In this document: positions 43,014-60,713 of the stretch, one piece after another
Layout of the letters: each line of letters opens with the position of its first letter
Position numbering within the stretch: the first letter of the stretch is position 1
Source of the DNA: Halomonas beimenensis
Lineage (GTDB): Bacteria > Pseudomonadota > Gammaproteobacteria > Pseudomonadales > Halomonadaceae
NCBI RefSeq assembly: GCF_002549795.1
Contig: NZ_CP021435.1
Span: 3,782,001 to 3,846,000 of the forward strand
Reading direction: 5' to 3'
Length of the DNA stretch: 64,000 bases
The notes under the pieces: generated by a model
What the model was told of the DNA's origin: nothing
The model's input: the letters and a program-made list of their open reading frames with translations, nothing else
Databases searched by the model: none
Position numbers and translations under genes: made by a program

Positions 43014-43022
43014 TCGCTCCCC

Positions 43023-43047
43023 GGCCCGGGCGCCCGGCGCCCGGGCC
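43023..43047 (+). terminator. GC-rich hairpin after hmp
   Basis: GGCCCGGGCGC (43023-43033) pairs with GCGCCCGGGCC (43037-43047) with a 3-base loop, 10 bases after the hmp stop. The following GCTTCGATTC is only weakly T-rich. Confidence 0.6.
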
Positions 43048-43204
43048 GCTTCGATTCAGCGGCCCCCGATCGCCTCGGCCCACCGATCCCTGGCCGGAAA
43101 CGGGCGATCGGCAGCCCGTCGTGATATCGCCCATCCGCGGCCTTCTCCGTCGGGAACGGGGCGCCGAACGGCCGTCTCGACCGTGCGCTTCGCCCCAACC
43201 CTCG

Positions 43205-43627
43205 TCATTCGGCAGAGAGTTCGGGCCAGCCGGGCAGGTGAAACTCCTCCTGGAGATGATGCAGCTCCGGCTGGTGCCGCTCGGCGATGCACCGTGCCAG
43301 CTCGGCGCCCCGGGACAGCAGGTGCACCTCCATCCGGCGACGATCCGCCCGTCCAGGCCGGCGCTCGACCAGCGACAGCTCCTCACAGCGATCCACCAGC
43401 ATGACGGTGCCGTGGTGCTTGGCCTGGAGGCGCTCCGCCAGCTCCCCCACCGTGGCCCATTCACGGCCCTCGAATCCCATCAGGTGCAGCAGCAGCTGGT
43501 ACTGGAGGGGTGTCAGCCCATGCTCCCGGCAGATGTCCTCGCTCTGCCTGAGAAAGCAGCGCAGCTGATAGCGAAAGTGCGACAGGCGCTGGAAATCCTG
43601 CTTGGTCAGGGGAGACGCATCCGGCAT
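43205..43627 (-). CDS. MarR-family transcriptional regulator
   Basis: A 140-residue winged-helix regulator. FRYQLRCFLRQSEDICREHGLTPLQYQLLLHLMGF, ATVGELAERLQAKHHGTVMLVDRCEELSLVERR and DRRRMEVHLLSRGAELA follow the MarR fold (helices 1-2, recognition helix, beta wing). Two Cys in the N-terminal helix (residues about 23 and 32) could be redox-sensing, but this is unproven. The start is ATG 43627, with GGAG upstream. It is divergent from the Yip1-family gene across a 129-base gap with a palindrome at 43700. Confidence 0.87.
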   Translation of the reverse strand: MPDASPLTKQDFQRLSHFRYQLRCFLRQSEDICREHGLTPLQYQLLLHLMGFEGREWATVGELAERLQAKHHGTVMLVDRCEELSLVERRPGRADRRRMEVHLLSRGAELARCIAERHQPELHHLQEEFHLPGWPELSAE

Positions 43628-43699
43628 GGCATGCTCCAGTGATGGCGGCGCTTCCCGCCTTGACAGAAGGCCTGACGGGGCATAAACCTGATCATAAAG

Positions 43700-43714
43700 T
43701 ATCATGAGATGATA
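43700..43714. promoter_or_regulatory. Candidate MarR operator
   Basis: TATCAT-GAG-ATGATA is a perfect 6-3-6 palindrome in an AT-rich stretch of the gap between the divergent MarR and Yip1-family genes. A second overlapping inverted element TGATCA lies just upstream (43689-43694). Confidence 0.5.
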
Positions 43715-43756
43715 TTTTTTTGCCAACCCGGAAACGAACAGACGCGAGGCCGGACC

Positions 43757-44323
43757 ATGAACCCCATCACCGTCATCCGATTGCCCTTCACCCGTCTGGC
43801 GGGTTGGAAGGAGCTGCAGAAACGCAAGCCCTCGATCGCGACCCTGGCCTGGGGCGTGGTGCTGCCCATGTCGCTGCTGCCGCCGCTGCTGCTCTACTAT
43901 GCCGGCACTCATTACGGCGACGCCTTCGTGGCCGGCTTCGCCGAGCGCCAGTGGCGCTTCATCACCACCATCCTCTTCCTGGCCGAACTGTTGACCTTCT
44001 TCGTCATGGGCTGGCTGATCCATGCCGTGGTCAACGCGACCCGGGAGCTGTCCATCGACTATCACGATGCCTATCTGCTGGCGGCCCTGGCCCCGCTGCC
44101 GCTGTGGTCCTCGGCGATCGTGCTGCTGATCCCCAGCCTCCTGCTCAATGTGCTGGCGGTGCTGGTGGCGCTGGGCATCTCCTGCAGCCTGGTCTACCAC
44201 GGCCTCCAGGCCCTCTGCGAACGCGAGGAAAATGACGTGGTCACCCAGTCCGTGACCTACACGGTGATGGCCTCCGGCGTGCTGGCCTGGGGGCTGCTGA
44301 TGGCCATCGTCTGGGTCTTCTGA
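43757..44323 (+). CDS. Yip1-family membrane protein
   Basis: A 188-residue protein with five membrane helices, matching the Yip1 domain family (DUF1282-like): ITVIRLPFTRLAGWKELQKRKPSIATLAWGVVLPMSLLPPLLLYYAG begins with a cytoplasmic stretch before helix 1 (shown here by features only). Function unknown in bacteria. The start is ATG 43757; an upstream codon at 43709 lies in the operator region. Divergent from marR, followed after 40 bases by DUF488. Confidence 0.8.
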   Translation: MNPITVIRLPFTRLAGWKELQKRKPSIATLAWGVVLPMSLLPPLLLYYAGTHYGDAFVAGFAERQWRFITTILFLAELLTFFVMGWLIHAVVNATRELSIDYHDAYLLAALAPLPLWSSAIVLLIPSLLLNVLAVLVALGISCSLVYHGLQALCEREENDVVTQSVTYTVMASGVLAWGLLMAIVWVF

Positions 44324-44363
44324 GGGCCCGGCCCCGCATCACACGATCGAGGCGAGCCGAACC

Positions 44364-44717
44364 ATGGGTATCGTCCTCAAGCGGGCCTTCGACCCGCCCG
44401 AGCCGGCGGATGGCTACCGCGTGCTGGTCGACCGGATCTGGCCGAGGGGGGTCCCCAAGGCTCAGGCGCGCATCGACGAATGGCCCAAGGAGGCGGCCCC
44501 GAGCGCTGAACTGCGCCGGGCCTTTCATGGCGGCGAGCTGTCCTGGGGGGAGTTTCGGCGCCGCTATCTGTCCGAACTGCGCGCCTGCCGCGGGCGCCTG
44601 CGCGGCCTGGCGGAGCGCGCGCGAAAGCAGCGGGTGACGCTGGTGTACGCCTCCCGCGACGAGCGGCACAACAATGCCATGGTGCTGAAGCAGTATCTCC
44701 GGATGCTGAACCGCTGA
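44364..44717 (+). CDS. DUF488 family protein
   Basis: A 117-residue protein with VLVDRIWPRGVPKAQARIDEWPKE and LVYASRDERHNNAMVLKQYL, the signatures of the DUF488/YeaO-type family. The Arg/Cys-poor fold resembles a small phosphatase-like barrel, but no activity is known. Full length. It follows the Yip1 gene in the same direction, probably co-transcribed. Confidence 0.88.
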   Translation: MGIVLKRAFDPPEPADGYRVLVDRIWPRGVPKAQARIDEWPKEAAPSAELRRAFHGGELSWGEFRRRYLSELRACRGRLRGLAERARKQRVTLVYASRDERHNNAMVLKQYLRMLNR

Positions 44718-44857
44718 CCCCGCCTGCCGGGGATACGGCGTGCTCGACCGGCGGGCCGACGATCCGCTTCCCGCCGTCGGGTCGGCGGAGCCGGCTGTCG
44801 GGCGCTTCCGCCGGACGGCGGCGCCGAGGCGCCCCGTCAGCGAGCCCCGATCGCGGC

Positions 44858-45250
44858 CTACTGGAAGCTGACCACCTCGCCCTGACGATCGAAGGCCAGG
44901 AAGCGGTCGATGTTGCCCATCTTCAGCGACTCCACCATCCGCTGCAGCTGTGGCTCCACGTCGGCCTCCCTCCCGGGGTCATCCAGGGCTCCGACGAAGG
45001 CGATATCCCAGTCGACCCCCGTCGCGCAGGCCTCCTCGACGAGGGGGGCCATGCCGGTGAGTTCGTCGGGCGTCTTGTCGACGCACAGCACCGGTGTCAG
45101 CACGCCCCCCTCTCCCGCCTCGAAGCGCGCTCGCTGCGCCTCGCTGGGGTGATCGGGCAGCTCGGCGCGCACCATCACGAACAGCAGGCGCTGCGGCTCG
45201 GCCTGGCGACGCGCCTCCTCGAGCAGGTCGACGAAATTCTGGATGGCCAT
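44858..45250 (-). CDS. Conserved hypothetical protein (often mislabelled RNR alpha)
   Basis: A 130-residue soluble protein with a central EPQRLLFVMVRAELPD stretch, TPVLCVDKTPDELTGMAPLVEEA and a C-terminal LAFDRQGEVVSFQ. Close relatives in databases are often named 'ribonucleotide reductase subunit alpha', but it is far too short and has no RNR motifs. Function unknown. ATG 45250 has GAGGAG upstream. Divergent from ubiU. Confidence 0.78.
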   Translation of the reverse strand: MAIQNFVDLLEEARRQAEPQRLLFVMVRAELPDHPSEAQRARFEAGEGGVLTPVLCVDKTPDELTGMAPLVEEACATGVDWDIAFVGALDDPGREADVEPQLQRMVESLKMGNIDRFLAFDRQGEVVSFQ

Positions 45251-45365
45251 GGGACTCCTCGGAAGACTTGGGGACCGTTGACGGCAGGGTAGTCTCCGTT
45301 GCCTCCCCCGGGAAAGCCCGGCGACATGGCGTCATGCCGATCCGCGCCCTCAACAAGGGACCGCC

Positions 45366-45379
45366 ATGACCCGGGTCAA
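45366..45379. promoter_or_regulatory. Fnr/Dnr box upstream of ubiU
   Basis: ATGACCCGGGTCAA, a near-symmetric box (2 mismatches in the left half, 1 in the right). The centre is 64 bases before ubiU. Confidence 0.75.
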
Positions 45380-45436
45380 TGGCGATGAAGGTATGGGCGA
45401 CTAGCATGGTCGGGTATTCATCGCCAGGAGACCGCC

Positions 45437-46432
45437 ATGGAGCTCGTCTGCCCCGCCGGCAACCTGCCCGCCCTCAAGCGCGCCGTGGATGAGGGGGCCG
45501 ACGCCGTCTACTTCGGCTTCCGAAACGCCACCAACGCCCGCCAGTTCGCCGGCCTCAACTTCACCGACCAGCGCGCCCGGGACGGCATCGCCTACGCCCA
45601 GGCCCGGGGCAGGCGGGTGTTCTGCGCGATCAACACCTATCCCCAGCCCGACGGCTGGGGCCAGTGGGCCCGCGCCGTCGACCAGGCCGCCGATCTCGGC
45701 GTCGACGCCCTGATCCTGGCCGACATGGGACTGCTGGAGTATGCCGCGACCCGCCACCCGGATCTCCCGCGTCACCTCTCGGTGCAGGGCTCGGCCACCA
45801 GCCACGCGGCGCTACGCTTCTACCACGATCACTTCGGCATCAAGCGTGCCGTGCTGCCGCGGGTGCTGTCGATCACCCAGGTCCGCGACCTGGCGAAGCA
45901 GAGCCCGGTGGAGCTGGAGGTCTTCGCCTTCGGCAGCCTGTGCATCATGGCCGAGGGACGCTGCTACCTGTCCTCCTACCTCACCGGCGAGTCGCCCAAC
46001 ACCCGCGGCGTCTGCTCGCCGGCCGGACACGTCCGCTGGGAGGAGACGCCCGACGGGCTCGAGTCGCGGCTCGGTGGCGTGCTCATCGACCGCTATGCGG
46101 ACGACGAACGGGCCGGCTACCCGACCCTGTGCAAGGGGCGCTTCGCGGTGGACGGCGAGACGTACCACGCCATCGAGGAACCCACCAGCCTCAATACCCT
46201 GGAGCTGCTGCCGGAGCTCGCCGAGCTCGGCATCAGCGCGGTAAAGATCGAGGGGCGCCAGCGCAGCCCGGCCTATGTGTCGAAGGTGGCCGGCATCTGG
46301 CGCCAGGCCCTGGACCGCCTCGCGCGGGAGCCGGCGCGTTTCCATCCCGACCCCGCCTGGCTCGCCGGCCTCGGCGGCGTCGCCGAGGGCACCACCACCA
46401 CCCTGGGCGCCTACGAGCGTCGCTGGAAATAG
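45437..46432 (+). CDS. ubiU: O2-independent ubiquinone hydroxylation protein UbiU (peptidase U32 family)
   Basis: Partner of UbiV in the anaerobic hydroxylation steps of ubiquinone synthesis; cytoplasmic. The 331-residue U32-family protein starts MELVCPAGNLPALK, the UbiU hallmark. Cysteines for its [4Fe-4S] centre are in LCIMAEGRCYLSSYL, RGVCSPAGHVRW and LCKGRF. It is led by CCAGGAG. First gene of ubiU-ubiV-nrdG under a Dnr box. Confidence 0.94.
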   Translation: MELVCPAGNLPALKRAVDEGADAVYFGFRNATNARQFAGLNFTDQRARDGIAYAQARGRRVFCAINTYPQPDGWGQWARAVDQAADLGVDALILADMGLLEYAATRHPDLPRHLSVQGSATSHAALRFYHDHFGIKRAVLPRVLSITQVRDLAKQSPVELEVFAFGSLCIMAEGRCYLSSYLTGESPNTRGVCSPAGHVRWEETPDGLESRLGGVLIDRYADDERAGYPTLCKGRFAVDGETYHAIEEPTSLNTLELLPELAELGISAVKIEGRQRSPAYVSKVAGIWRQALDRLAREPARFHPDPAWLAGLGGVAEGTTTTLGAYERRWK

Positions 46433-46441
46433 GAGTCCGCC

Positions 46442-47362
46442 ATGCGTGACACGCCACTGGAACTGACCCTGGGGCCGGTGCTCTTCTACTGGTCCCGGGA
46501 GCGCTACGAGGCCTTCTATCGGGAGGCCGCCGACTGGCCGGTCGACACCGTCACCCTGGGGGAAAGCGTCTGCTCGCGGCGTCGCGACATGAAGCTCGAC
46601 GACTGGCTCGGCCTCGGCCGCGAACTGGCCCAGGCCGGCAAGCGGGTGGTGCTGGCCTCCCAGACGCTGATCGAGTCCGAGGCCGACCTTCGCGACCTGC
46701 GCAAGCTATGCGACAACGGCGACTTCCTGGTGGAGGCCAACGACCAGAGCGCCCTCCAGGGACTGATCGAGCGCGGGCTGCCCTTCGTCGGTGGCGCCGC
46801 CCTCAACCTCTACAACCGCCAGGCCATCGCGGTGCTCGAACGCGCCGGCATGCAGGCCTGGCAGGCCCCGGTGGAGATGTCCCGGGAGGCCCTGTCGACA
46901 CTGCTCGAGGACTGTCGCGCCCAGGGCGTCGAGTCGCCCTGCGAGGTGTTCGCCCATGGGCACCTACCGCTGGCCTGGTCCTCACGCTGCTTCACCGCCC
47001 GGCGCCACCGGCGTCCCAAGGATCGCTGCGGCTTCGTCTGTCAGGACTATCCCGAGGGCCTGGCGCTGCGTTCCCAGGAAGGCCAGGAAGTGTTCACCTT
47101 GAACGGCATCCAGACCCTGTCCGGCGCCTGCCAGGACCTGCGCCACGAGCTGCCGGCCATGCAGGCCATGGGCGTGGCCGCCGCCCGCCTGAGCCCCCGG
47201 GCGGCAGGCATGGCGGAGATCGTGGCGGCCTATGATGCGGCTCGCCGTGGCGAGCCGCCGGCCCCCGACCCGTTGCGCCTGGTCGATGCCAGCCTCTGCG
47301 ACGGCTACTGGCACGGCGGGGCGGGCATGGCCCGCCGCACCGAGGAGGCATCGTCATGCTGA
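46442..47362 (+). CDS. ubiV: O2-independent ubiquinone hydroxylation protein UbiV (peptidase U32 family)
   Basis: A 306-residue U32-family partner of UbiU, also an Fe-S protein. GESVCSRRRDMKLDDWLGLG and RCFTARRHRRPKDRCGFVCQDYPEG contain the four cysteine ligands. LYNRQAIAVLERAG and ARLSPRAAGM are typical. AGGAG precedes ATG by 7 bases, and its stop overlaps nrdG by 7 bases, so translation is coupled. Confidence 0.94.
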   Translation: MRDTPLELTLGPVLFYWSRERYEAFYREAADWPVDTVTLGESVCSRRRDMKLDDWLGLGRELAQAGKRVVLASQTLIESEADLRDLRKLCDNGDFLVEANDQSALQGLIERGLPFVGGAALNLYNRQAIAVLERAGMQAWQAPVEMSREALSTLLEDCRAQGVESPCEVFAHGHLPLAWSSRCFTARRHRRPKDRCGFVCQDYPEGLALRSQEGQEVFTLNGIQTLSGACQDLRHELPAMQAMGVAAARLSPRAAGMAEIVAAYDAARRGEPPAPDPLRLVDASLCDGYWHGGAGMARRTEEASSC

Positions 47363-48102
47363 TCCCCGCCCTGTCCCTGGACACCGAGCCCGCCCGGGCC
47401 CTGCGCCTGCCCCTGGCCGGGTTCACCACCCTGGACGCCGAGGCCTTCCCGGGCCGCCGCGCGGCGGTGATCTACCTGCAGGGCTGCCCGCTGCAATGCG
47501 GCTACTGCGAGAACGGCACCATGATGGCCCCGCGCCGAGGGGAAAGCGGCGAGTGGGAGGCCGTGGAAACGTACCTGGCCAGCCGCCTGGATCGCCTGGA
47601 GGCGGTGGTCTTCAGCGGCGGCGAGCCGACCCTGCACGCCGATCTCCCCGAGGCCGTGGCCCGGGTACGCGGCCTGGGACTGTCGGTGGGCCTGCACACG
47701 GCGGGCCCCTATCCCGAGCGTCTGGCGCGACTGCTGCCCTGGCTGGACTGGGTGGCGCTGGACGTCAAGGGAAGGGGACATGACTTCGACCGCATCGGCG
47801 GCCGGCCGGGGGTCTGGCGACGCCATGCCCGCAGCCTGGAGGCCCTGCTGGCCGGCGACGTCGCCTTCGAGTGCCGCACCACGGTGCACTGGCGGGACTT
47901 CGAGCTGGCCGACGTCGAACGCCTGGCGATGACCCTGGCCGACTGCGGCGTGCGCCGCTATGCGCTGCAGGTGGCCCGCACCGAACGCTGCCAGGATCCC
48001 GACTACTGCCGGCCGGTTCCAGGGGCCCCCTCCCGGGAAACCCTGGAGGCCCTGGCGCGGCGGCTGTGCCCGCATTTCGACCATCTGGCCCTGCGCCACT
48101 GA
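47356..48102 (+). CDS. nrdG: Anaerobic ribonucleotide reductase-activating protein (NrdG2-type radical SAM)
   Basis: A 248-residue radical-SAM protein with CPLQCGYC (Cx3Cx2C) binding the [4Fe-4S] cluster, VVFSGGEPTLH and LHTAGPYPERL. It matches the TIGR02495-type NrdG2 family, named as activators of class III RNR. No NrdD (class III) gene is here; the nearby reductase is class II, which needs no activase. The true partner may be elsewhere, or it has another glycyl-radical or anaerobic substrate. Third gene of ubiU-ubiV-nrdG. Confidence 0.85.
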   Translation: MLIPALSLDTEPARALRLPLAGFTTLDAEAFPGRRAAVIYLQGCPLQCGYCENGTMMAPRRGESGEWEAVETYLASRLDRLEAVVFSGGEPTLHADLPEAVARVRGLGLSVGLHTAGPYPERLARLLPWLDWVALDVKGRGHDFDRIGGRPGVWRRHARSLEALLAGDVAFECRTTVHWRDFELADVERLAMTLADCGVRRYALQVARTERCQDPDYCRPVPGAPSRETLEALARRLCPHFDHLALRH

Positions 48103-48116
48103 GCTCCCGGCCATGA

Positions 48117-48135
48117 CGCCCGCCGGAGGCGGGCG
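48117..48135. terminator. Hairpin between convergent nrdG and nrdJb
   Basis: CGCCCGCC (48117-48124), a GGA loop, GGCGGGCG (48128-48135). A perfect 8-bp stem in the 42-base gap between the convergent genes; it could terminate both. Confidence 0.6.
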
Positions 48136-48144
48136 CCGCTGCAC

Positions 48145-48885
48145 TCAGCCGCACTTGGACCAGCCGCAACCCGCGTAGCAGGTGGGGCAGCCGTCCATCA
48201 TGATCAGGTCCCCCCGGCACTCGGGACACTGCCCCACCACCGTCGGCTTGCCCTGCTTCGCCTCGGCATCGCGCTCGGCCTGGGCCTGCTCCTCCGGGCT
48301 CGGCGGCTGCCAGGGGTGGCCGCTGGCCAGTCGCTGGGCATGGCGGTGCACCAGTTCCTCCACCGGCACCTGATGGCCGTCCTGATCCAGGAAACCGCGA
48401 CGATAGAGGATCTGCTGGATCGACCAGGCGATGGCGGCGACCTCGGAGTCGTGGAACATCGGCTTGCCCCAGCGGTTCATGCCGCAGCGCACCAGCCCCT
48501 TGTCCCAGGCCACCTTGCGCAGGTCGGCCACCGCCTGGGTGACATAGCCGCCCCGCGCGGCCAACGACAGGCTGCGCATGGTGGCGGTGATCCACTGGTG
48601 CTCGCTGGACAGCTGCCCGGAGGGAAAGAAGAACTCCACCGGGCGCTCGATGACCACCCGCTTGCCGCCCAGCACGCCCTCCACCGGCATGAAGGACACC
48701 AGCAGGTAGACCTTCTTGCGGCCCTCGGCGCCGACGTAGGAGATCTTCTCCGAGACGGCCTCCAGGGTGCCCTCGGGGCGCGAGGGGATGCGGACCGTCA
48801 AGGGGTTCTCGTCGGCCAGCGGCGGCTCCTCCACCGCCTTCTTGACGCTGTAGGACACGATCTTCGAGGTGATCTCGACGGTCAT
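48145..48885 (-). CDS. nrdJb: Class II ribonucleotide reductase, C-terminal subunit
   Basis: The second polypeptide of the split B12-dependent RNR (246 residues). It ends with a cysteine-rich tail, CPECRGDLIMMDGCPTCYAGCGWSKCG by parts: a zinc-ribbon-like CxxC...CxxC and the terminal redox CGWSKC that reduces the active site. The TSCavenger NrdJ module is continued by the 'FFPSGQLSSEHQWITATMRSL' stretch. Starts 78 bases after nrdJa. Split NrdJa/NrdJb occurs in Pseudomonas and relatives. Confidence 0.92.
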   Translation of the reverse strand: MTVEITSKIVSYSVKKAVEEPPLADENPLTVRIPSRPEGTLEAVSEKISYVGAEGRKKVYLLVSFMPVEGVLGGKRVVIERPVEFFFPSGQLSSEHQWITATMRSLSLAARGGYVTQAVADLRKVAWDKGLVRCGMNRWGKPMFHDSEVAAIAWSIQQILYRRGFLDQDGHQVPVEELVHRHAQRLASGHPWQPPSPEEQAQAERDAEAKQGKPTVVGQCPECRGDLIMMDGCPTCYAGCGWSKCG

Positions 48886-48963
48886 CGACGGGCTCCTTGA
48901 AATAGGGAATCAGGGATCGCGCGAGGCCGGCTCACAGTCGTGACGCGCCCCGAGGGGCGTGGC

Positions 48964-51075
48964 TTACCACTTGCCATAGGTCCCCTCCTTGAGTCCTTCG
49001 TAGAGGTTCGCCGCGGTGTGCTCCTCGCCCTCGTAGAGGACCTTCTCGTCCCCGGCCAGCTCGACGGTCTCGCCGTTCTCCAGCTCGAAGACATAGGTGG
49101 TGTTCTTGAGATCGTCCTCGCGTACCAGCACCCCCTGGAAGGCCTCGGGGTTGAAGCGGAAGGTGGTACAGCCCTTGAGCTGGCTGTCGTAGGCGTCCAG
49201 GTAGAGGTCCTTGAAGTCCGCGAAGGCGAAGTCGGTGGGCACGTTGACCGTCTTGGAGATTGCCGAGTCCACCCAGGCCTGGGCGGCGGCCTGCACCGCC
49301 ACGTGCTGGGCGGGCGAGACGGCATCGGCGGTGACGAAGTAGTCCGGCAGCTCGCTCTCCACCGCCTCCGGCGCGACGACGTGCCGATAGGCGGCGAGCT
49401 CGAAGGACACCACCTCGACCTGGTCCTTGGTCTTGCGCCCGGCGCGGATGACGTTGCGGTAGTAGCGGTGGGAGAAGGACGGTTCGATGCCGTTGGAGGC
49501 GTTGTTGCCCAGCGACAGCGAGATGGTGCCGGTGGGCGCGATGGAGCTGTGATGGGTGAAACGGGCGCCATGCTCGGCGAGCTCGGCCACCAGCTCGGGC
49601 TCGACCTCGGCGACCTTCTGCATGTAGCGACTGTAGCGGGCGTGCAGGATGCGCCCGGGGAGCCGATCGCCCACCTCGTAGCCGTCGTTCGCCAGCTCCG
49701 GCCGCTCGCGCAGCATCTTCGGGGTGATGGCGAAGTCCTCGGCGAGGATCGGTGCCATGCCCTTCTCCCGGGAGAGTTCGAGGGCCTGCTTCCAGCCCTC
49801 GACGGCCATCACCCGGCTGACCTCCTCGGTAAAGGCCAGCGACTCCGGCGAGCCATAGGGCATCTTGAGCATGGTCAGCGCCGAGCCCAGCCCCAGGAAG
49901 CCCATGCCGTGGCGTCGCTTGGCCTCGATCTCGCGGCGCTGGCCCTCCAGCGGCAGGCCGCTGATCTCCACCACGTTGTCGAGCATGCGGGTGAAGATGG
50001 CCACCACCTGCCGGTAGCGCGCCCAGTCGAAGCGCGGCGTGTCGCCGAAGGGGTCGAGGACGAAGCGCGTCAGGTTGATCGAGCCCAGCAGGCAGGCGCC
50101 TTCCGGCGGAAGCGGCTGTTCCCCGCACGGATTGGTCGCGCGGATCTCCTCGCAGAACCAGTTGTTGTTCATCCGGTTGACCTGGTCGATCAGGATGAAG
50201 CCCGGCTCGGCGAAGTCGTAGGTGGAGCGCATGATGGTGTCCCAGAGCTCGCGGGCCCGGACCACCTCGACGATGCGGCAGGCGACCCGTCCCTGGTCGT
50301 CCAGGGTGTAGCCCTCCTCGATCACCGGCCAGTCCCGATAGACCAGCTCGTCTTCCTCGACGTCGTCCTTCTCCTTCGGGTGCAGGGGGAAGGCCAGGGG
50401 CCAGTCGGCGTCGCCGCGCACCGCCTCCATGAACTCGTCGGTGATCAGCAGGCTGAGGTTGAACTGGCGAAGGCGACCCGCCTCACGCTTGGCCTCGATG
50501 AAGGCCCGCACGTCCGGATGCCCGACGTCGAAGGTCGCCATCTGCGCCCCGCGACGCCCGCCCGCCGAGGCCACCGTGAAGCACATCTTGTCGTAGATAT
50601 CCATGAACGCCAGGGGGCCGTTGGTGCCGGCACCGGCGCCGAACACGAAGGCGCCCTTGTGGCGCAGGGTGGAAAACTCGTAACCGATGCCGCAGCCCGC
50701 CTTGAGCGTCATGCCGGCATCCACCACGGCTTCCAGGATGTCGCGCATGGAGTCGCGGATGGTCCGCGACACCGTGCAATTGATCAGGCTGACCTCGGGC
50801 TTGACGTGCTCGGCGCCGGCGTTGGCGACGATACGGCCGGCGGGAATGGCGCCGTTGTCCAGCGCCCAGCGGAACTTCGGTAGCCAGGCGTCGGCCGCCT
50901 CGCCTTCCACCGCGGCCAGCGCCCGGGCCACCCGCTCGCGGGTGGCGGCGAGGTCCGCGTCCACCGGACGGCCGTGGCGGTCCTTGAGACGATACTTGGT
51001 ATCCCAGATGTCGAGCGAGGGCGCCTGGATGGGCACCTCCTCGACGGCAGGGGCATCCTTGGCGGATGTAGACAT
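48964..51075 (-). CDS. nrdJa: Class II (B12-dependent) ribonucleotide reductase, catalytic subunit
   Basis: Adenosylcobalamin-dependent reductase of ribonucleotides that does not require O2. 703 residues. NPCGEQPLPPEGACLLGSINL has the radical Cys and catalytic Glu/Asn region, SLINCT holds the first redox Cys, and CGIGYEFSTLR and PTGTISLSLGNNASNGIEP are family signatures. The C-terminal redox tail is in the separate nrdJb. Second gene of ubiT-nrdJa-nrdJb, 28 bases after ubiT. No cobalamin riboswitch was recognised upstream. Confidence 0.95.
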   Translation of the reverse strand: MSTSAKDAPAVEEVPIQAPSLDIWDTKYRLKDRHGRPVDADLAATRERVARALAAVEGEAADAWLPKFRWALDNGAIPAGRIVANAGAEHVKPEVSLINCTVSRTIRDSMRDILEAVVDAGMTLKAGCGIGYEFSTLRHKGAFVFGAGAGTNGPLAFMDIYDKMCFTVASAGGRRGAQMATFDVGHPDVRAFIEAKREAGRLRQFNLSLLITDEFMEAVRGDADWPLAFPLHPKEKDDVEEDELVYRDWPVIEEGYTLDDQGRVACRIVEVVRARELWDTIMRSTYDFAEPGFILIDQVNRMNNNWFCEEIRATNPCGEQPLPPEGACLLGSINLTRFVLDPFGDTPRFDWARYRQVVAIFTRMLDNVVEISGLPLEGQRREIEAKRRHGMGFLGLGSALTMLKMPYGSPESLAFTEEVSRVMAVEGWKQALELSREKGMAPILAEDFAITPKMLRERPELANDGYEVGDRLPGRILHARYSRYMQKVAEVEPELVAELAEHGARFTHHSSIAPTGTISLSLGNNASNGIEPSFSHRYYRNVIRAGRKTKDQVEVVSFELAAYRHVVAPEAVESELPDYFVTADAVSPAQHVAVQAAAQAWVDSAISKTVNVPTDFAFADFKDLYLDAYDSQLKGCTTFRFNPEAFQGVLVREDDLKNTTYVFELENGETVELAGDEKVLYEGEEHTAANLYEGLKEGTYGKW

Positions 51076-53141: not shown

Positions 53142-54169
53142 TGTGATCTCTCGGTAGGTTGTTCATCCGGAACCTACCCGGACAATTGGAGGTGCGACCC
53201 AAACCAACCTCCAGGAGGCCCGGATGAACACCCATAAGAATGCCCGTCTCACAGTGCATGGTCGAGCCCTGCTGGTCCGCCGAGTCATCAGGGAAGGGCT
53301 TCGGCCAGCGGAGGTGGCCCAGGCGCAAGGCGTCAGTGTGCGGACGGTCTACAAGTGGGTACGCCGTTACAGGGACGAGGGCGAGGCCGGTCTCCTGGAC
53401 CGTTCTTCTCGCCCATGCCGTTGTCCTCATGAGACCCCAGACGCGATCCGCGCGCAGGTCATCGCACGCCGCCGGCAGCGCCAGACCTACCGCCAGATTG
53501 CCGAACAGGTGGGCATCGGACACAGTACGGTCGCGCGACTCCTTGAGCGCGAGGGGCTGAATCGTCTCTCGGTCTTGGCGCCCGCTCCTCTCGAGAACCG
53601 CTACGAGCATGACGCCCCGGGAGAGCTCCTGCACCTGGACATCAAGAAGCTCGGCCGCTTCGAGCGCCCAGGGCATCGTGTCACCGGCAATCGCCAGCAG
53701 AACACACGAGGCGCTGGCTGGGAGTACGTCCATGTGGCCATCGACGACCACTCGCGAGTGGCCTTCAGCACCATCCTGCCGGATGAGACCAAGTGGAGCG
53801 CTTGCCGTGCGCTGCTGCAGGCCGTGCGGTACTACAGGCGTCTGGGGGTCCACTTTAGCCGGGTACTGACCGACAATGGCGGATGCTACAAGTCCAAGCC
53901 ATTCCGCCGCCTGTGCCGCCGATTAGGGCTGAAACGCAAGCGCACTCGCCCCTTTACGCCCCGTACCAATGGCAAGGCAGAGCGGTTCATTCAAACCGCC
54001 CTGCGCGAATGGGCCTATGCCTGGTCTTATCAGAGCTCAGAGCAACGAGGCGAGCATCTGCCCGCCTGGCTCCACCAGTACAACTGGCATCGGCCACATG
54101 CCAGTCTGAATTATCAGCCTCCGATTAGTCGGCTGGGACTTTCCGTGAACAACCTGGTGGGTTTACACA
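53142..54169 (+). mobile_element. IS481-family insertion sequence, intact
   Basis: A 1028-bp element. The left end begins TGTGATCTCTCGGTAGG and the right end, read inward on the minus strand, begins TGTGTAAACCCACCAGG; both continue with TTGTTCA at the same distance, giving imperfect terminal inverted repeats of about 24 bp. It is flanked by CCTAGA duplications and carries one transposase gene. It has inserted one base past the hemN stop codon region, leaving hemN intact. Confidence 0.9.
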
Positions 54170-54174
54170 CCTAG
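53224..54174 (+). CDS. IS481-family transposase
   Basis: A 316-residue DDE transposase. N-terminal helix-turn-helix (EVAQAQGVSVRTVYKWVRRYRDEG), then an IS481-type rve domain with ELLHLDIKKLGRF, HVAIDDHSRVAF, TDNGGCY and TPRTNGKAERFIQTALREWAYA containing the DDE residues (LDI Asp, TDNG Asp, KAERF Glu). ATG 53224 has CAGGAGG. The gene has no stop within the element: TAG is at 54172-54174, in the target-site duplication. It appears complete and potentially active. Confidence 0.92.
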   Translation: MNTHKNARLTVHGRALLVRRVIREGLRPAEVAQAQGVSVRTVYKWVRRYRDEGEAGLLDRSSRPCRCPHETPDAIRAQVIARRRQRQTYRQIAEQVGIGHSTVARLLEREGLNRLSVLAPAPLENRYEHDAPGELLHLDIKKLGRFERPGHRVTGNRQQNTRGAGWEYVHVAIDDHSRVAFSTILPDETKWSACRALLQAVRYYRRLGVHFSRVLTDNGGCYKSKPFRRLCRRLGLKRKRTRPFTPRTNGKAERFIQTALREWAYAWSYQSSEQRGEHLPAWLHQYNWHRPHASLNYQPPISRLGLSVNNLVGLHT

Positions 54175-55849: not shown

Positions 55850-56317
55850 ATGCACCTGACCCGCTACACCGACTACTCACTACGCGTCCTGATCTATCTC
55901 GCCATTCGCGGCGAGGAGCGCTCGACCATCACCGAGATCGCCGAGCGCTTCGCGATTTCACGCAACCATCTGATGAAGGTGGTGCAGGATCTCAACCACC
56001 GGGGTTACATCACCGCCATCCGCGGCAAGCACGGCGGCCTGCTGCTCCGACGGGCCCCGGCCGACATCTGCCTGGGCGCCCTGGTGCGGGACACCGAGCG
56101 CGACCTGGGGCTGGTGGAATGCTTCGGTGACGACAACGACTGCGTCATCACCCCTTCCTGCCGGCTCAAGCCGATCCTCGCCGAGGCCCTGGCGGCCTTC
56201 CTCGGCGTGCTCGACCGCTACACCCTCGCCGACCTGCTGGGCCCCCAGCGCACCGGCCTGATCCAGCTGCTGCACCTCGAGGATCCACTGCCCGACGCCG
56301 CCGACCCTCAGGCCTGA
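55850..56317 (+). CDS. nsrR: NO-sensing transcriptional repressor NsrR (Rrf2 family)
   Basis: A 155-residue Rrf2-family regulator whose [Fe-S] cluster reacts with NO. MHLTRYTDYSLRVLIYLA is the NsrR N-terminus, with ISRNHLMKVVQDL as recognition helix and GYITAIRGKHGGLLL as wing. Three cysteines, in VECFGDDNDCVITPSCRL, are the cluster ligands (C-x6-C-x5-C). Candidate operators lie at norC, nnrS and hmp and weakly at its own promoter. Its end overlaps the convergent kinase by 10 bases. Confidence 0.95.
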   Translation: MHLTRYTDYSLRVLIYLAIRGEERSTITEIAERFAISRNHLMKVVQDLNHRGYITAIRGKHGGLLLRRAPADICLGALVRDTERDLGLVECFGDDNDCVITPSCRLKPILAEALAAFLGVLDRYTLADLLGPQRTGLIQLLHLEDPLPDAADPQA

Positions 56318-57825
56318 GCCGCGTCACCCGGCCCGTGAAGGGTATCGGCGAGCGGCAACCAGAGGCTCACCGTGGTCCCCCGCCCGGGGACGCTGTCGAT
56401 GGCCAGGCGGGTACCATGACGCTCGGCGATCTCGCTGACGATCGACAGGCCAAGTCCGGAGCCTTCGCCCCGGGCCCGACCGTCGCGAGTGCGATGGAAC
56501 CGCTGGGTGACCAGGGGCAGTTCGTCCGGGGCGATGCCGACACCGTCGTCGCTCACCGCGACCCGCACCCCGTCCCCGGGCTCGGCCCGAGCCCACAGCC
56601 AGACCCGCCCGCCGGGCGTCGTCGCCTTCATCGCGTTGTCGATCAGGTTGGCCAACGCCCGGTCGATCAGTCCCAGGTCCGCCTCGACACGGGGCAGGCC
56701 GGGATCGCACGTCACCTCCAGGGCGATGTTCCGGCGCCTCGCCTGGTCCTGGAACTTGCCGGCGATGTCGTGGGCGAGTTCGGCGAGCGAGAAGGCTTCG
56801 CGCTGCAACGGCCGGTCGTGGGCATCGAGTCGCGACAGGGTCGAGAGCTGGTCGGCCAGCCGTGTCAGCCGCCCGACGTTGTCGAGGATCCCGGTCAATC
56901 GCCGCCGGCGCTCCTCGACCGTCAGGTCCTCGCGCTCGAGCAGATGCTCCACGTTGCCGCGCAGCGACGTCAGGGGCGTGCGGAAGTCGTGGGAGAGATT
57001 GGCCACCAGCTCGCGTCGTTGACGATCGGTCTCGCGCAATGCCAGTAGCTGCGCCTCGATGGTGCCGGCCATGTCGTTGAAGGCCCGCCCCAGCCGTCCC
57101 AGCTCATCGCGACCGGGATCGACGAGGCGCGCCTGGAACTCGCCCCGGGCGAAGCGCTGGACGGCGCCGGTCAGCCGCGAGAAGCGCCGGGTCAGCAGGG
57201 CGAACCAGACCAGGCCGAGCAGTCCGGCGATCAGCACCGCCAGCCCCCCCGCCGCCACCAGGGTGCGGGTGATGGAACTGGTGCGAAGCATGGCGACCAT
57301 CGAGGCCTCGCTGGCCTTGTTCAGGTCGGCATAGAGGTAGCCCGGCCGGCCCTCGGGTCCGTAACGGATCCTCGCCACCGAGAAGACGCCCGGTTCCCCG
57401 CCGCAGGGCGAGGAGGCCAGCACCGGCAGCATCGGCGACTCCCCCAGCAGCGCCTCGATGGCCGCGAGCTCGACCCGGCTGCCGAGGCCACAGGGCGGCC
57501 GCGCATAGTCGGCGATCACCCGGCCCCGGTCGTCGAGCACGTAGAGCGACAGCGAGGGATTGATGGCGACGATATGGCGCGCCATGCGCCGGGCAGCGGG
57601 GCTGTCCGCCCCCGCGTCCAGGGCAGGCGCCATGACCCGGGCCAGGTTGCCGGCCAGTCCCGCTTCCTGCCGTTGCTGGAACTCGCGGCTCAGCTGGTCG
57701 AACTGGCTGGTGGCCAGCCAGGCGACCGCCACCGAGAGCAGCAGCAGCCCGCTCAGGTAGACGAGGGCGATCCGGGCATAGAGGCTGCGCGCCCAGCCGG
57801 CCAGGCGGTTCGACAGGGCGCTCAT
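56308..57825 (-). CDS. Sensor histidine kinase of the Met-rich peptide/YedY-like cluster
   Basis: A 505-residue membrane sensor. Helix 1 (about 15-37), a periplasmic domain of about 170 residues with two Cys (PPCGLG and SSPCGGEPG), helix 2, HAMP (TRRFSRLTGAVQRFARGEF), H-box SHDFRTPLTSLRG, N-box ALANLIDNAMKATTPGG, G-boxes DDGVGIAPDELP and GSGLGLSIV. The start is ATG 57825, overlapping the response-regulator stop by 4 bases. The signal is unknown; the two periplasmic Cys and the neighbours (Met-rich peptide, YedY-like enzyme) hint at oxidant or metal stress, as with HprSR. Confidence 0.9.
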   Translation of the reverse strand: MSALSNRLAGWARSLYARIALVYLSGLLLLSVAVAWLATSQFDQLSREFQQRQEAGLAGNLARVMAPALDAGADSPAARRMARHIVAINPSLSLYVLDDRGRVIADYARPPCGLGSRVELAAIEALLGESPMLPVLASSPCGGEPGVFSVARIRYGPEGRPGYLYADLNKASEASMVAMLRTSSITRTLVAAGGLAVLIAGLLGLVWFALLTRRFSRLTGAVQRFARGEFQARLVDPGRDELGRLGRAFNDMAGTIEAQLLALRETDRQRRELVANLSHDFRTPLTSLRGNVEHLLEREDLTVEERRRRLTGILDNVGRLTRLADQLSTLSRLDAHDRPLQREAFSLAELAHDIAGKFQDQARRRNIALEVTCDPGLPRVEADLGLIDRALANLIDNAMKATTPGGRVWLWARAEPGDGVRVAVSDDGVGIAPDELPLVTQRFHRTRDGRARGEGSGLGLSIVSEIAERHGTRLAIDSVPGRGTTVSLWLPLADTLHGPGDAAQA

Positions 57826-58541
57826 GCCTCCTCCGGGACCACGAAGCGGTAGCCCACGCCCCACACGGTCTGGATGAAGCGCGGCTGGGCCGGATCGTCC
57901 TCGAGCTTGTTGCGCAGGCGGTTGATGTGGGTGTTCACGGTGTGGTCGAAGCCATCGAACTCCTCCCCCCATACCCGATCGAGCAGCTCGCCTCGGCTGA
58001 AGCTGTGACCGGGATGGCGGGCGAACAGCGTCAGCAGGGCGAATTCCTTGCCGGTCAGCTGGATCGGGCGCCCGGCCAGGGTGACCCGGTGCTGATCGAC
58101 ATCGATGATCAGGGGCCCCTGGACGATGGGGGCCGGGGGAGTGAGCTCCTCCCGCGCCGCGCCCTGCAGCCGGCGCAGCAGGGCCTGGACCCGGGCCAGC
58201 AGGATCGGCAGCTGGAAGGGCTTGGTGACATAGTCATCGGCGCCGATCTCGAGCCCGCTCACCACGTCCCGCATCGACGCCTTGGCGGTCACCATCAGCA
58301 CGGGCGTCCGCGCATCGTGCCGGCGCAGCCGGCGACACACCTCCAGGCCGTCGAGGCCCGGGAGCATCAGGTCCAGCATCACCAGATCGTAACGCGCCTC
58401 GGGGGAGGCGGCGTCCAGCGCCGCCAGGGCCGCCTCGCCGTCGGTGACCCAGTCACAGCGATAGCCGGCCTCGCCGAGACGCTCGGCGAGCAGCTTGCCG
58501 ATGTCGGGATTGTCCTCGACGCAGAGAATCCGGTAGGGCAT
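57822..58541 (-). CDS. OmpR-family response regulator
   Basis: A 239-residue regulator with receiver domain (ED at 9-10, phosphoacceptor Asp57 in VMLDLMLPGLDG, Lys in YVTKPF) and a winged-helix domain (LTGKEFALLTLFARHPGHSFSRGELLDRVWG, VNTHINRLRNKLE, VWGVGYRF). Coupled to the kinase by ATGA. It is divergent from the Met-rich peptide gene; an inverted set of TCAC/GTGA repeats lies between (58599-58639). The start is ATG 58541. Confidence 0.93.
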   Translation of the reverse strand: MPYRILCVEDNPDIGKLLAERLGEAGYRCDWVTDGEAALAALDAASPEARYDLVMLDLMLPGLDGLEVCRRLRRHDARTPVLMVTAKASMRDVVSGLEIGADDYVTKPFQLPILLARVQALLRRLQGAAREELTPPAPIVQGPLIIDVDQHRVTLAGRPIQLTGKEFALLTLFARHPGHSFSRGELLDRVWGEEFDGFDHTVNTHINRLRNKLEDDPAQPRFIQTVWGVGYRFVVPEEA

Positions 58542-58598
58542 GGGCTGACCTTGTAGGGCGGTTCGGCATTCCACTCTAGAACCACGAGGCTCCGGATG

Positions 58599-58639
58599 CA
58601 TCACGAAACCGTCACCACGGCCGTGATGATTTCGTGATG
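58599..58639. promoter_or_regulatory. Candidate response-regulator operator
   Basis: CATCACGAAA (58599-58608) and TTTCGTGATG (58630-58639) are exactly inverted, and a second pair, GTCACCACGG with CCGTGATGA, lies between them. This tandem inverted array sits in the gap between the divergent response regulator and Met-rich peptide genes, about 60 bases before the former and 80-120 before the latter. Confidence 0.65.
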
Positions 58640-58720
58640 AATACGCCGGGACGGCCGACTAGCGTGAAAGCTGCCATGTCGGCATTCCGCCGCTGGCTCG
58701 GACAAGCCTGGAGGTATGCG

Positions 58721-59017
58721 ATGTTGATTCGAGAGCGCGCCCGTCCCGCCACGTTCGCCATCCTGCTGCTCGGCGGTGCCCTGCTGCTGCCGGCCGCCGC
58801 CCTGGCCGACCATCACGAGGACGCCATGCAGCAAGGCGACAGCATGATGCAGCAAGGCGACGGCATGGAGCAGGACGCCATGGCCGGTGAAGCGATGACC
58901 GGCGAGGCCATGAAGGGTGAGGCGATGAGCGAGGAGCTGCCCATGAAGCCGGAAGATGACGACGCGATGCCGATGGAAGAAGAAGGGGAGACGATGGAGG
59001 GCGAGGGCGAGATGTGA
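58721..59017 (+). CDS. Met-rich periplasmic peptide (MrpX-like)
   Basis: A 98-residue precursor with a signal peptide cleaved after ALA29, giving a mature acidic peptide of about 69 residues with 13 Met and no Cys. It contains the pentapeptide array AGEAM-TGEAM-KGEAM and MQQGD/MMQQGD repeats. Such peptides (MrpX of Azospira, 'pentapeptide MxKDx' proteins) scavenge hypochlorite by Met oxidation and are reduced again by a YedY/MsrP-type enzyme. Cu(I) binding is another possibility. The start is ATG 58721 after GGAGG; the in-frame extension to 58634 is unlikely. Followed by cytochrome b and the YedY-like gene. Confidence 0.78.
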   Translation: MLIRERARPATFAILLLGGALLLPAAALADHHEDAMQQGDSMMQQGDGMEQDAMAGEAMTGEAMKGEAMSEELPMKPEDDDAMPMEEEGETMEGEGEM

Positions 59018-59104
59018 GGCTCGGCGCCCGCGATCGGCCGCCGGGCCCGTCTCCCGGCCGGCCGCCCCGTTTCCCGCCCCTGGCCGTCCCGGAGAGGCTA
59101 CGAC

Positions 59105-59959
59105 ATGTCCGCCATGCACCATCCCACCCGCGACCGCTCGAAGACGGTGATCCGCCGACACTCGCTGTTCACGCGGCTCTGGCACTGGCTTACCGTCCTC
59201 TGCCTGGTCATCCTGCTGATGAGCGGGTTGCAGATATTCAATGCCCATCCGGCCCTCTACTGGGGCAAGGATTCGCATTTCGACAGCCCCGCCCTGTCGA
59301 TCGGCGCGGAGCGACAGGACGGCGAGTGGCGGGGGATCACGCAACTCGGCGGCTGGCGGTTCGATACCACCGGCCTGCTGGGAGTCTCCGGTCCCGAGGG
59401 GGACCGCGACCGGCGCGCCTTTCCCGCCTGGGCCACCCTGCCCGGTCCGCGCTGGCTGGCCATGGGCCGACAGTGGCACTTCCTGGCCGCCTGGCTCTTC
59501 GTGCCCCTGCTGGTCGCCTACCTGCTCTACCTGGTGATCGGCGGCCGGCTCCGCCGCCGGCTGTTGCCCCGCACCACGGAATGGCGCCACCTCGGCACCC
59601 TCCTCATCGACCATCTGCGCCTGCGCTTCCCCCGGGGCGAGGCGGCCCGCCACTACAATCTCCTGCAGAAGCTGGCCTACCTGACGGTGCTGTTCGTGCT
59701 GGCCCCGCTGGTGGTGCTCACCGGCCTGACCATGTCGCCGACGATGGACGCCGCCTGGCCCTGGCTGCTGGACGTCTTCGGCGGCCGTCAGAGCGCCCGC
59801 ACCCTCCATTTCCTCTGCGCCGTCGCCCTGCTGGCCTTCTTCGTGATCCATGTGTCGATGGTGCTGGCCTCCGGCGTCGTCAACAACCTGCGATCGATGA
59901 TCACGGGGCGCTATGTGCTGCCCCCGGAAGAGGAGTCTCGCCATGACCCGACCTCCTGA
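59105..59959 (+). CDS. Cytochrome b/b6-type membrane subunit
   Basis: A 284-residue inner-membrane di-haem cytochrome b with four helices (family of FdnI/HyaC/CybH type). Histidines in RHSLFTRLWHWLTVL (helix 1), MGRQWHFLAAW (helix 2), LHFLCAVALLAFFVIHVSMV (helix 4) are likely haem ligands. It has a sizeable loop between helices 1 and 2 (about 50-110). It should donate quinol electrons to the YedY-like enzyme, replacing YedZ/MsrQ, which has six helices. Overlaps the next gene by 17 bases. Start has GGAGAGGCTACGAC. Confidence 0.88.
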   Translation: MSAMHHPTRDRSKTVIRRHSLFTRLWHWLTVLCLVILLMSGLQIFNAHPALYWGKDSHFDSPALSIGAERQDGEWRGITQLGGWRFDTTGLLGVSGPEGDRDRRAFPAWATLPGPRWLAMGRQWHFLAAWLFVPLLVAYLLYLVIGGRLRRRLLPRTTEWRHLGTLLIDHLRLRFPRGEAARHYNLLQKLAYLTVLFVLAPLVVLTGLTMSPTMDAAWPWLLDVFGGRQSARTLHFLCAVALLAFFVIHVSMVLASGVVNNLRSMITGRYVLPPEEESRHDPTS

Positions 59960-60713
59960 TGAGCGGCGCCGCCGGTTCCTGGCGGGCTCCCTGCTGGCCA
60001 CCGGCAGCCTGCTGCTGGGCGGCTGCGACCGCCTCTCGCGCAGCGGCACCCTGCAGCCGCTGTTCGACGCCAGCGAGGCCCTGACCCAACGGGCCCACCG
60101 GCTGCTCGCCTCCCGGGAGGCCCTAGCCCGGGAATACACGCCCGCCGACATCGCTCCGACCTTCCGCCCCAACGGCACCACCTTCCCCCGGGAACGGGCC
60201 TACATGCGGCTGGCGGCGGGCCACTTCCGGGCCTGGCGCCTGGAGGTGGACGGCCTGGTCGAGCGCCCCCAGGCCTTCTCGCTGGAGGCGCTCCGGGCCC
60301 TGCCCTCGCGCACCCAGATCACTCGGCACGACTGCGTCGAGGGCTGGAGCTGCATCGGCCAGTGGACCGGCGTGGTGCTGGGGGACCTGCTGGCCCGGGT
60401 GGGGGTGAAGGACGAGGCCCGCTTCGTGGTCTTCCACTGCGCCGACCGCTTCCCCGGCGGGGATCGCTACTACGAGAGCCTGGACATGCGCGAGGCCTAT
60501 CATCCCCAGACCCTGCTGGCCTACGCGCTGAACGGCGCCCCCCTGCCCATCGCCAATGGCGCCCCCCTGCGCCTGCGCGCCGAACGCCAGCTGGGCTACA
60601 AGATGGCCAAGTACCTGATGCGCCTGGAACTGGTGGACAGCTTCGCGCACATCGGCGGCGGCCGAGGCGGCTTCTGGGAGGACCGCGGCTACCGCTGGTG
60701 GGCCGGCATCTGA
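59943..60713 (+). CDS. YedY/MsrP-like molybdopterin-dependent oxidoreductase, Tat lipoprotein
   Basis: A 256-residue periplasmic molybdoenzyme of the sulfite oxidase/MsrP fold. Twin-arginine signal RRRRFLAGS with a lipobox (LLLGGC, Cys28), so probably a Tat-exported lipoprotein. The expected Mo-ligating Cys is Cys131 in HDCVEGWSCIGQW. GDRYYESLDM and NGAPLRLRAERQLGYKMAKY are typical. MsrP reduces periplasmic protein Met sulfoxide; here the Met-rich peptide is an obvious substrate (inference). E. coli MsrP is soluble, so the lipobox is unusual. Overlaps the cytochrome b gene by 17 bases. Confidence 0.85.
   Translation: MTRPPDERRRRFLAGSLLATGSLLLGGCDRLSRSGTLQPLFDASEALTQRAHRLLASREALAREYTPADIAPTFRPNGTTFPRERAYMRLAAGHFRAWRLEVDGLVERPQAFSLEALRALPSRTQITRHDCVEGWSCIGQWTGVVLGDLLARVGVKDEARFVVFHCADRFPGGDRYYESLDMREAYHPQTLLAYALNGAPLPIANGAPLRLRAERQLGYKMAKYLMRLELVDSFAHIGGGRGGFWEDRGYRWWAGI

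Follow-up and report, generated by a model that had tools for sequence, protein, structure and literature searches.

The Locus and Its Genes

In the 64,000-nucleotide stretch of Halomonas beimenensis DNA analyzed here (the window, part of a closed 4.05-Mb genome), we identified an operon on the + strand encoding an acidic methionine-rich peptide, a membrane cytochrome b and a molybdopterin enzyme of the YedY/MsrP fold, with a divergent two-component system (TCS) on the - strand. The peptide gene (98 aa, predicted to be secreted) runs from an ATG at 58721 to 59017, behind a ribosome binding site (GGAGG, from the sequence) at 58710-58714; it is followed by the gene for the cytochrome (59105-59959; b561/PF01292 type by Pfam, with seven histidines invariant in 25 aligned rows) and by that for the enzyme (59943-60713; 256 aa), whose first 17 nt are shared with the cytochrome gene. 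On the other strand lie the genes for an OmpR/PhoB-type response regulator (57822-58541; 239 aa, by Pfam) and a sensor histidine kinase (56308-57825; 505 aa), which overlap by 4 nt; Pfam and a sensor alignment from 25 loci divide the kinase into a transmembrane segment, a periplasmic PAS/Cache-like sensor, a second transmembrane segment, and HAMP, HisKA and HATPase domains. The initial annotation had placed the peptide, cytochrome b and YedY-like enzyme beside a TCS of their own, and compared the set to the MrpX-YedY system of Azospira; open reading frames (ORFs) and Pfam matches agree with this gene content, and the organization is indeed MrpX-YedY-like, with peptide, cytochrome, YedY-fold enzyme and a dedicated TCS whose likely operator occurs once.

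The Methionine-Rich Peptide

The peptide precursor contains 14 methionines, 13 of them after a signal peptide of about residues 1-29 (Sec-type by inspection, ...AAALA); it has no cysteine and a net charge of about -21, and the mature part is made up mainly of Asp, Glu, Gly, Ala, Gln, Ser, and Met. Among the 304 ORFs of 45-260 aa in the window, it alone passed a scan for Met-rich secreted proteins (all ORFs scanned for a hydrophobic segment followed by at least 15% and at least eight Met). Around 80 named relatives of the enzyme, the same scan gave 19 matches in the core region (200 kb-strand) vs. 2 in the 2172 kb-strand elsewhere, both of these antisense to the same peptide gene; the core region is the enzyme strand from -1750 to +750 nt of the enzyme, with bounds fixed after a first look.

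The mature peptides of 25 halophile loci have a Met content of 17-25%; acidic residues average 39% and basic ones 2%, hydrophobic residues are few (FWYILV 1.7%), and net charges run from -20 to -37. Cys is absent from all 25, and the sequences are diverse while the Met fraction is kept. Ten loci with a sigma/anti-sigma pair (SigF/NrsF) encode mature peptides with 17-22% Met, 15% acidic and 23% basic residues and a net charge of +2 to +7, and eight of the ten have two Cys. The two sets were first cut by differing rules, the SigF rule favoring high Met; recut by another rule, the SigF-type peptides (n = 10) have 16-22% Met and net charges of +2 to +5. Thus Met content is kept while charge is inverted between the SigF-type and halophile peptides. 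An adaptation to salt would be a reasonable reading of this acidity, though one with a single origin, since the acidic peptides come from essentially one halophile clade. Against the NCBIfam model TIGR02953 (MXKDX repeat) the window peptide scores 27.3 bits, under the cut-off of 41, and its Modicisalibacter homologue passes with 53.6 bits; the MXKDX peptides have Lys at positions where the window peptide is acidic.

Other Met-rich secreted proteins were seen near related enzymes. A gammaproteobacterial locus (L175) has one about 1.4 kb upstream of the enzyme with EF-hand-like DxNKDG motifs (by eye), possibly a calcium-binding Met sink, and a same-strand two-component pair nearby. In rhizobial loci (L066, at 8805-9077; L074; L085; L091; L094), the enzyme gene is immediately followed by that of a secreted peptide with 24-27% Met that also contains Cys; the one in L066 matched no Pfam or NCBIfam family.

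Conservation and Modularity

We searched 90 same-genus genomes with a profile of eight orthologs (E ≤ 1e-40) and found the enzyme in 24, of which 22 were counted as orthologs; L141 and L142 (about 510 aa, another family) were excluded. The initial annotation had named beforehand a lack of conserved linkage as grounds for rejecting its proposal, and conserved synteny answers this objection: the Met-rich peptide lies upstream in 22/22 orthologous loci, and the cytochrome, regulator and kinase are present in 21/22. The exception, L156, is decayed: it has no cytochrome, regulator or kinase match, its first cytochrome codons lead straight into those of the enzyme, its operator is eroded, and the peptide is still open. 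This relic (G067, bases 7495-8753 of the oriented stretch) comes from one draft genome, where an assembly error is possible; it was included among the 22 and in the 26 stem-loop folds, and excluded from the peptide-composition, operator, kinase and tree sets. An Rrf2-family regulator, which we take to be NsrR-like, lies directly beyond the kinase gene in the window (55850-56317), and a similar ORF adjoins the peptide in L156.

The whole set also occurs in Modicisalibacter muralis, two Salinisphaera species, H. heilongjiangensis, Halomonas sp. PA16-9, and L178 (same family); the nearest named relative among the matches listed is H. heilongjiangensis (enzyme 81%). L146 and L044 very likely represent the same contig, so L146 was left out of the tree and L044 out of the 25-locus counts. 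Sampling more broadly, we found the enzyme family in 39 of the 151 genomes taken from the window's family, its genus included (E ≤ 1e-60), and in 13 of the 370 taken from the class (E ≤ 1e-40).

The named relatives are the best 80 of at least 592 (4/80 cut short in the core region), and the proportions among them are therefore not natural frequencies. A cytochrome match adjoins the enzyme in 81/81 loci (these 80 and the window). The Met-rich peptide was found in 19/80: in four it accompanies the divergent TCS, in ten it lies upstream alongside SigF/NrsF, and in five it follows the enzyme (a weak SigF/NrsF match being present in one of the five); a weak Met-rich ORF overlapping the enzyme gene in L047 was left uncounted. 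L054, which matches regulator and kinase more weakly (116 and 98 bits, both on the same strand) and in which no Met-rich peptide was seen, was labeled as lacking this TCS, as were L080, L049, and L053, which have single weak matches further off. In 14 of the 80 loci there is a TetR gene together with another conserved protein, which begins with a signal-like segment and is not Met-rich. A protein of about 200-320 aa with a signal-like start and ending in PPM accompanies the enzyme and cytochrome in rhizobia, Bordetella-like bacteria, and Salinicola, frequently near a TetR gene (for example, L041:6380-7030, L043:8820-10516, and L062:8866-9495); the one member scanned (L041) had no Pfam match, and the protein could be a further substrate or partner for the enzyme.

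In the remaining 61/80 loci the scan detected no Met-rich peptide, and the enzyme/cytochrome pair must therefore act on something else. Such loci, the several lineages in which the pair has another conserved, probably secreted, non-Met-rich protein, and the near exclusion with canonical MsrP described below would all suit a peptide that is a docking or reporter protein (its oxidation read by the kinase, for example) instead of a sink, with the enzyme mainly repairing other envelope proteins, as MsrPQ does. Yet the peptide is kept in every orthologous locus of the genus, its Met fraction is kept while charge and length vary, and the MrpX of Azospira is reported to be sacrificial (as cited in PMC8315932 and PMC8550376). 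We consider a docking or reporter role improbable.

In an enzyme tree of 114 rows (quick method), seven partner/regulator classes require 16 changes vs. a shuffled mean of 55; thus the classes cluster, yet have been repeatedly exchanged. The halophile TCS rows fall into one clade of 27 rows with a Shimodaira-Hasegawa-like approximate likelihood ratio test (SH-aLRT) support of 87, which includes one row (L181) with no detected partner. C3567, the corresponding enzyme of uropathogenic Escherichia coli (UPEC), is placed apart from the window enzyme in a separate deep clade (SH-aLRT 100) with two SigF/NrsF and two downstream-peptide loci, so the Met-rich-peptide arrangement occurs in both enzyme clades.

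A Predicted Single-Copy Operator and a Putative Stem-Loop

The intergenic region between the regulator and peptide genes is 179 bp long. Pattern search and conservation predict an operator here (CATCACGAAA ... GTGATGATTTCGTGATG; 58599-58639, strand not assigned) that forms a 41-bp palindrome, CATCACGAAA...TTTCGTGATG, the first base of which (58599) is also where the segment considered in the initial annotation began. Its promoter-proximal side contains two GTGATGA half-sites 11 bp apart; an 11-bp repeat is typical of PhoB/OmpR-type regulators. The exact palindrome matches once in the window and in none of 100 shuffles, and is single in the whole 4.05-Mb genome; the half pattern, with as many as three mismatches allowed, was recovered only here, on both strands, and at a single further weak position. 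This near-uniqueness suggests a regulon of one operon.

Both arms are found by a loose pattern in 25/25 related intergenic regions, with a left-arm variant (CATTACA) in L124 and L155, and a last right half-site of GTGAGGA in L122, L146, and L154. A second half-site 11 bp off is present in the right arm in 10 loci, in the left arm in 9, and in neither in the other 6. The predicted -10 element of the peptide operon (TAGCGT, 58660-58665, + strand) belongs to a CTAGCGT block whose first base is 25 nt beyond that of the last GTGATGA. Of the 25 loci, 22 have this 25-nt distance from last half-site to -10-like block and the other 3 have 26 nt; the -10 patterns were picked once the alignment had been viewed. 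A tentative -10 element of the divergent regulator promoter (TCTAGA, 58575-58580, - strand), identified by reading, is also seen in many of the Halomonas rows when the intergenic regions are aligned. The UPEC intergenic region also has related half-sites (TCAC/GTGATGAA) with different spacing. The palindrome is likely the operator of the dedicated regulator.

A putative stem-loop region lies between the peptide and cytochrome genes (59018-59075, + strand). When the region after the peptide stop was folded in 26 loci, the mean z was -2.2, and 22/26 were under -1, with differing arm sequences; a stem-loop here would fit a peptide made in excess of the enzyme.

The Response Regulator and the Kinase Sensor

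The regulator is 47% identical to OrhR of UPEC, and the kinase 31% identical to OrhK; in a one-way search the best match of OrhR in this genome is the window regulator (208 vs. 153 bits for the next). In 25 aligned kinases, whose sensors are 44-80% identical to that of the window, 33 positions out of 143 in the sensor do not vary, and these include C112, M132, and C141. OrhK retains 18 of these 33 columns, but not C112, M132, or C141. The structural model of the sensor has low confidence, with a mean predicted local distance difference test score (pLDDT) of 66.5; Foldseek gave no match under E 0.001, and VIA-align gave best Z scores of 9.9 (a ligand-binding receptor) and 8.8 (CitA), middling scores that are compatible with a PAS/Cache domain.

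In E. coli, the msrPQ-controlling kinase HprS is reported to sense through two periplasmic Met, with a transmembrane Cys required for signal transduction (PMC10151825); the conserved periplasmic Cys pair is therefore a different candidate chemistry. A tentative proposal, possible more than probable in our judgment, is that the kinase is a thiol-based periplasmic oxidant sensor in which a C112/C141 disulfide, with M132 between, is made or broken under hypohalous stress, and that it drives one operon, with an acidic, Cys-free Met sink suited to high salt and an inner-membrane-anchored module replacing MsrPQ in part of the genus.

The kinase might instead sense a metal, with the peptide a periplasmic Cu(I)/Ag(I) sponge and the enzyme repairing Met oxidized during copper stress. 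Met-rich motifs also bind Cu(I)/Ag(I), as in CusF and SilE. There is a match to a cop/sil-class kinase model, and CusS is among many weak fold matches of the sensor model. Moreover, E. coli MsrP has been studied in copper stress and in CusF repair (PMC9302797). The cop/sil-class match is below cut-off, however, the kinase reaching 143 bits vs. the 293-bit cut-off of the metal-sensor family, and the closest characterized relative of the regulator among those compared is OrhR, controller of an oxidative-stress operon; on these comparisons of kinase and regulator, we regard a metal buffer as unlikely.

The Cytochrome and the Molybdoenzyme

The cytochrome exceeds the PF01292 gathering cut-off (91.6 vs. 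30.1 bits). The initial annotation had called it FdnI-type, a label that should be replaced by b561/PF01292, as the formate-dehydrogenase-gamma/FdnI scores are under cut-off.

The enzyme matches PF00174 (Oxidored_molyb; 123.3 bits), and its best solved relative by sequence profile is YedY/MsrP (1xdq, E 2.9e-24); 1xdq is also the best fold relative of its AlphaFold model (mean pLDDT 81.5; Foldseek E 1e-14), so that the modeled enzyme has the YedY fold. R128, H129, D130, and C131 are invariant in 63/63 aligned enzymes, and C131 would be the Mo-ligand Cys. By reading, the N-terminus has a twin-arginine translocation (Tat)-like motif (RRRFL) and a lipobox (LLGGC; LGGCD, with Asp at +2). The lipobox Cys is present in 62/63 aligned relatives and Asp at +2 in 59/63; the twin-Arg pattern matched 35/63 rows, some rows beginning beyond the motif. 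The initial annotation had reported this Tat motif and lipobox as a feature of the variant: both are there by reading, while the lipobox proves to be the family norm, and C3567 of UPEC has one by reading as well. Asp at +2 is an inner-membrane retention signal in enterobacteria, and the enzyme is predicted to be an inner-membrane-anchored lipoprotein; such an anchor would hold it next to its cytochrome.

Canonical MsrP and the Denitrification Neighborhood

Canonical MsrP is over cut-off in 41/90 genus genomes, and its distribution is nearly the inverse of that of the operon: 2/22 genomes with the operon (decayed copy counted) have it vs. 39/68 without (Fisher p = 6e-5, a value that overstates the number of independent events since the genomes are related), or 2/22 vs. 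35/59 (p = 4e-5) when genomes less than 90% complete are dropped. This near mutual exclusion suggests that the operon replaces MsrP, and its direction fits a shared role.

The neighborhood gave reason to consider a different trigger, since a cytochrome c gene and nosR lie directly downstream of the operon, and the window also contains COX1-family, NorC-like and flavohaemoglobin-type genes; the initial annotation had taken this linkage as a clue that nitrosative or reactive chlorine stress is the trigger. In the nitrosative case the operon would be part of a denitrification or nitric oxide (NO) response. The link is not conserved. NosR is adjacent in 5/22 orthologous loci, and it is present in 12/22 genomes with the system vs. 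48/68 without (p = 0.20); because NosR is neither enriched nor regularly adjacent, the denitrification neighborhood is local to the window. For E. coli HprSR-msrPQ, NO is among the weaker activators compared to hypochlorous acid (HOCl) (PMC10151825). A denitrification or NO trigger is thus unsupported, and we consider it very improbable.

The genes at 36826-51075 of the window encode a COX1-family protein, a NorC-like cytochrome c, a globin-FAD-NAD (flavohaemoglobin) protein, a U32 pair, and a large ribonucleotide reductase; the U32 pair is presumably UbiU/UbiV-like. An IS481-type transposase gene (53224-54174) adjoins a hemN-like gene, 2 kb before the kinase region.

A Proposed Methionine Sink and Repair System

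We propose that the operon is a TCS-controlled methionine sink and repair system of halophiles, and put the probability of this general mechanism at about 70%. By analogy with the systems compared below, it probably guards the cell envelope against bleach-like oxidants, with the peptide taking the damage and the enzyme repairing it. In the periplasm the kinase would sense an oxidant, plausibly through C112, C141 and M132; hypohalous acid or another reactive chlorine or bromine species of that kind is the most likely candidate, and peroxide a possible one. The regulator would then bind the GTGATGA repeats, which overlap the -35 position, and turn on the peptide-cytochrome-enzyme operon. The exported and probably disordered peptide would be oxidized in place of other envelope proteins, and the Tat-exported Mo-enzyme, a predicted inner-membrane lipoprotein, would reduce the Met sulfoxides of the peptide with electrons passing from the quinone pool through the cytochrome b. 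The stem-loop after the peptide gene may allow the sink to be made in excess over the enzyme.

Several observations, in addition to the peptide-less relatives and the metal-binding capacity of Met-rich motifs, weigh against this proposal. The enzyme misses the cut-off of the MsrP equivalog model (NF003767; 98.1 vs. 207 bits), so that Met sulfoxide as its substrate rests on fold and context, and the NCBIfam Tat-signal model scores it at 11.4, under the cut-off of 16.7. In the very GC-rich window copy, the stem-loop lacks significance (z -0.04). Finally, two genomes hold both the operon and canonical MsrP, and the exclusion test is without phylogenetic correction and has the decayed copy among its 22.

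Comparison With Known Systems

Systems of this general kind are already known: MrpX-YedY of Azospira, BcrXQP of Brucella, and, with a TCS, OrhKR-C3566-C3568 of UPEC. The initial annotation had pointed to a kinase/regulator pair in place of SigF/NrsF as a novelty. The Pfam matches confirm the pair itself, and no SigF/NrsF match turned up in the window from 4.5 kb upstream to 3.3 kb downstream; as a novelty, however, it falls away, for a TCS-driven operon of a cytochrome b, a YedY-like enzyme and a Met-rich peptide has been published for UPEC, where OrhKR directly activates c3566-c3568, and C3566/C3567 protect against a peroxide (PMC8550376). Like the window locus, the OrhKR-C3566-C3567-C3568 locus of UPEC strain CFT073 has a divergent OmpR-type TCS, a cytochrome b, a YedY-like lipobox enzyme (C3567, 35% identical to the window enzyme), and a small Met-rich peptide; its intergenic GTGATGAA-type element, differently spaced, may or may not be an equivalent operator. 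It differs in that its peptide gene comes after the enzyme gene instead of before the cytochrome gene, its peptide is neutral with two Cys where that of the window is acidic and Cys-free, and OrhK is without both Cys and the Met conserved in the halophile kinases; in addition, the UPEC operon is co-transcribed with downstream genes (PMC8550376), and the CFT073 cytochrome gene is flagged as frameshifted by RefSeq. A nucleotide search for E. coli counterparts found none.

Reportedly, the work of Melnyk in 2015 described the Azospira SigF/NrsF-MrpX-YedY1 system with MrpX as a sacrificial protein. Perchlorate islands carry sigF/nrsF-yedYZ-mrpX (PMC4623255), and the Brucella BcrXQP system is HOCl-inducible, controlled by a sigma/anti-sigma pair (BcrS/AbcS), and contributes to HOCl resistance (PMC8315932). 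These SigF-type systems resemble the window in combining a secreted Met-rich peptide, a cytochrome and a YedY-like enzyme in a single operon that has its own regulator beside it, and our ten alphaproteobacterial SigF/NrsF loci have the same enzyme family (55-60% identity) and the same order of peptide, cytochrome and enzyme. This branch has a sigma/anti-sigma pair where the window has a TCS, and its positively charged peptides contrast with the strongly acidic one of the window (the Azospira system was compared by description only).

The MsrPQ (YedYZ)/HprSR system of E. coli, a Mo-enzyme/haem-protein repair pair under TCS control (PMC10151825), also shares the YedY fold with the window; in contrast to MsrP, the window enzyme is below the MsrP cut-off and has a lipobox with Asp at +2. 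The window cytochrome is of the PF01292 type, and MsrQ is not known to be a PF01292 cytochrome. To our knowledge, the MsrPQ system has no peptide.

Among the matches listed in the open-license literature, no paper described the operon in Halomonas or its relatives, and nothing relevant appeared for Halomonas with Msr, hypochlorite or hypobromite, or for a lipidated YedY, which does not establish absence from print; in a paper on salinity in Halomonas elongata (PMC9006882), a term search found MsrA/B/C treated and no MsrP, YedY, methionine-rich protein or hypochlorite. Five features look new: (1) the single-copy operator, conserved in 25 loci at a near-fixed distance (25-26 nt) from the -10 box; (2) the invariant C112, C141 and M132 of the kinase sensor, none of them in OrhK; (3) peptides of 17-25% Met at a net charge of -20 to -37, vs. 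positive SigF-type peptides; (4) Asp at +2 after the lipobox in nearly all aligned enzymes, a predicted inner-membrane anchor; and (5) the near mutual exclusion with canonical MsrP in the genus. The Cys pair, the single operator and the inverse distribution of MsrP offer handles on how envelope methionine oxidation is sensed and on what a sacrificial protein requires, and halophiles would be a sensible place to look for hypobromite as a natural oxidant. Taken together, the comparison suggests that the methionine-sink defense of perchlorate reducers and pathogens is a modular kit, with an enzyme/cytochrome core and exchangeable regulators (two-component or sigma/anti-sigma); the TetR-linked relatives of this core carry a different partner, and the peptide sequence is almost free save for its Met content, with its charge inverted in the halophile group.

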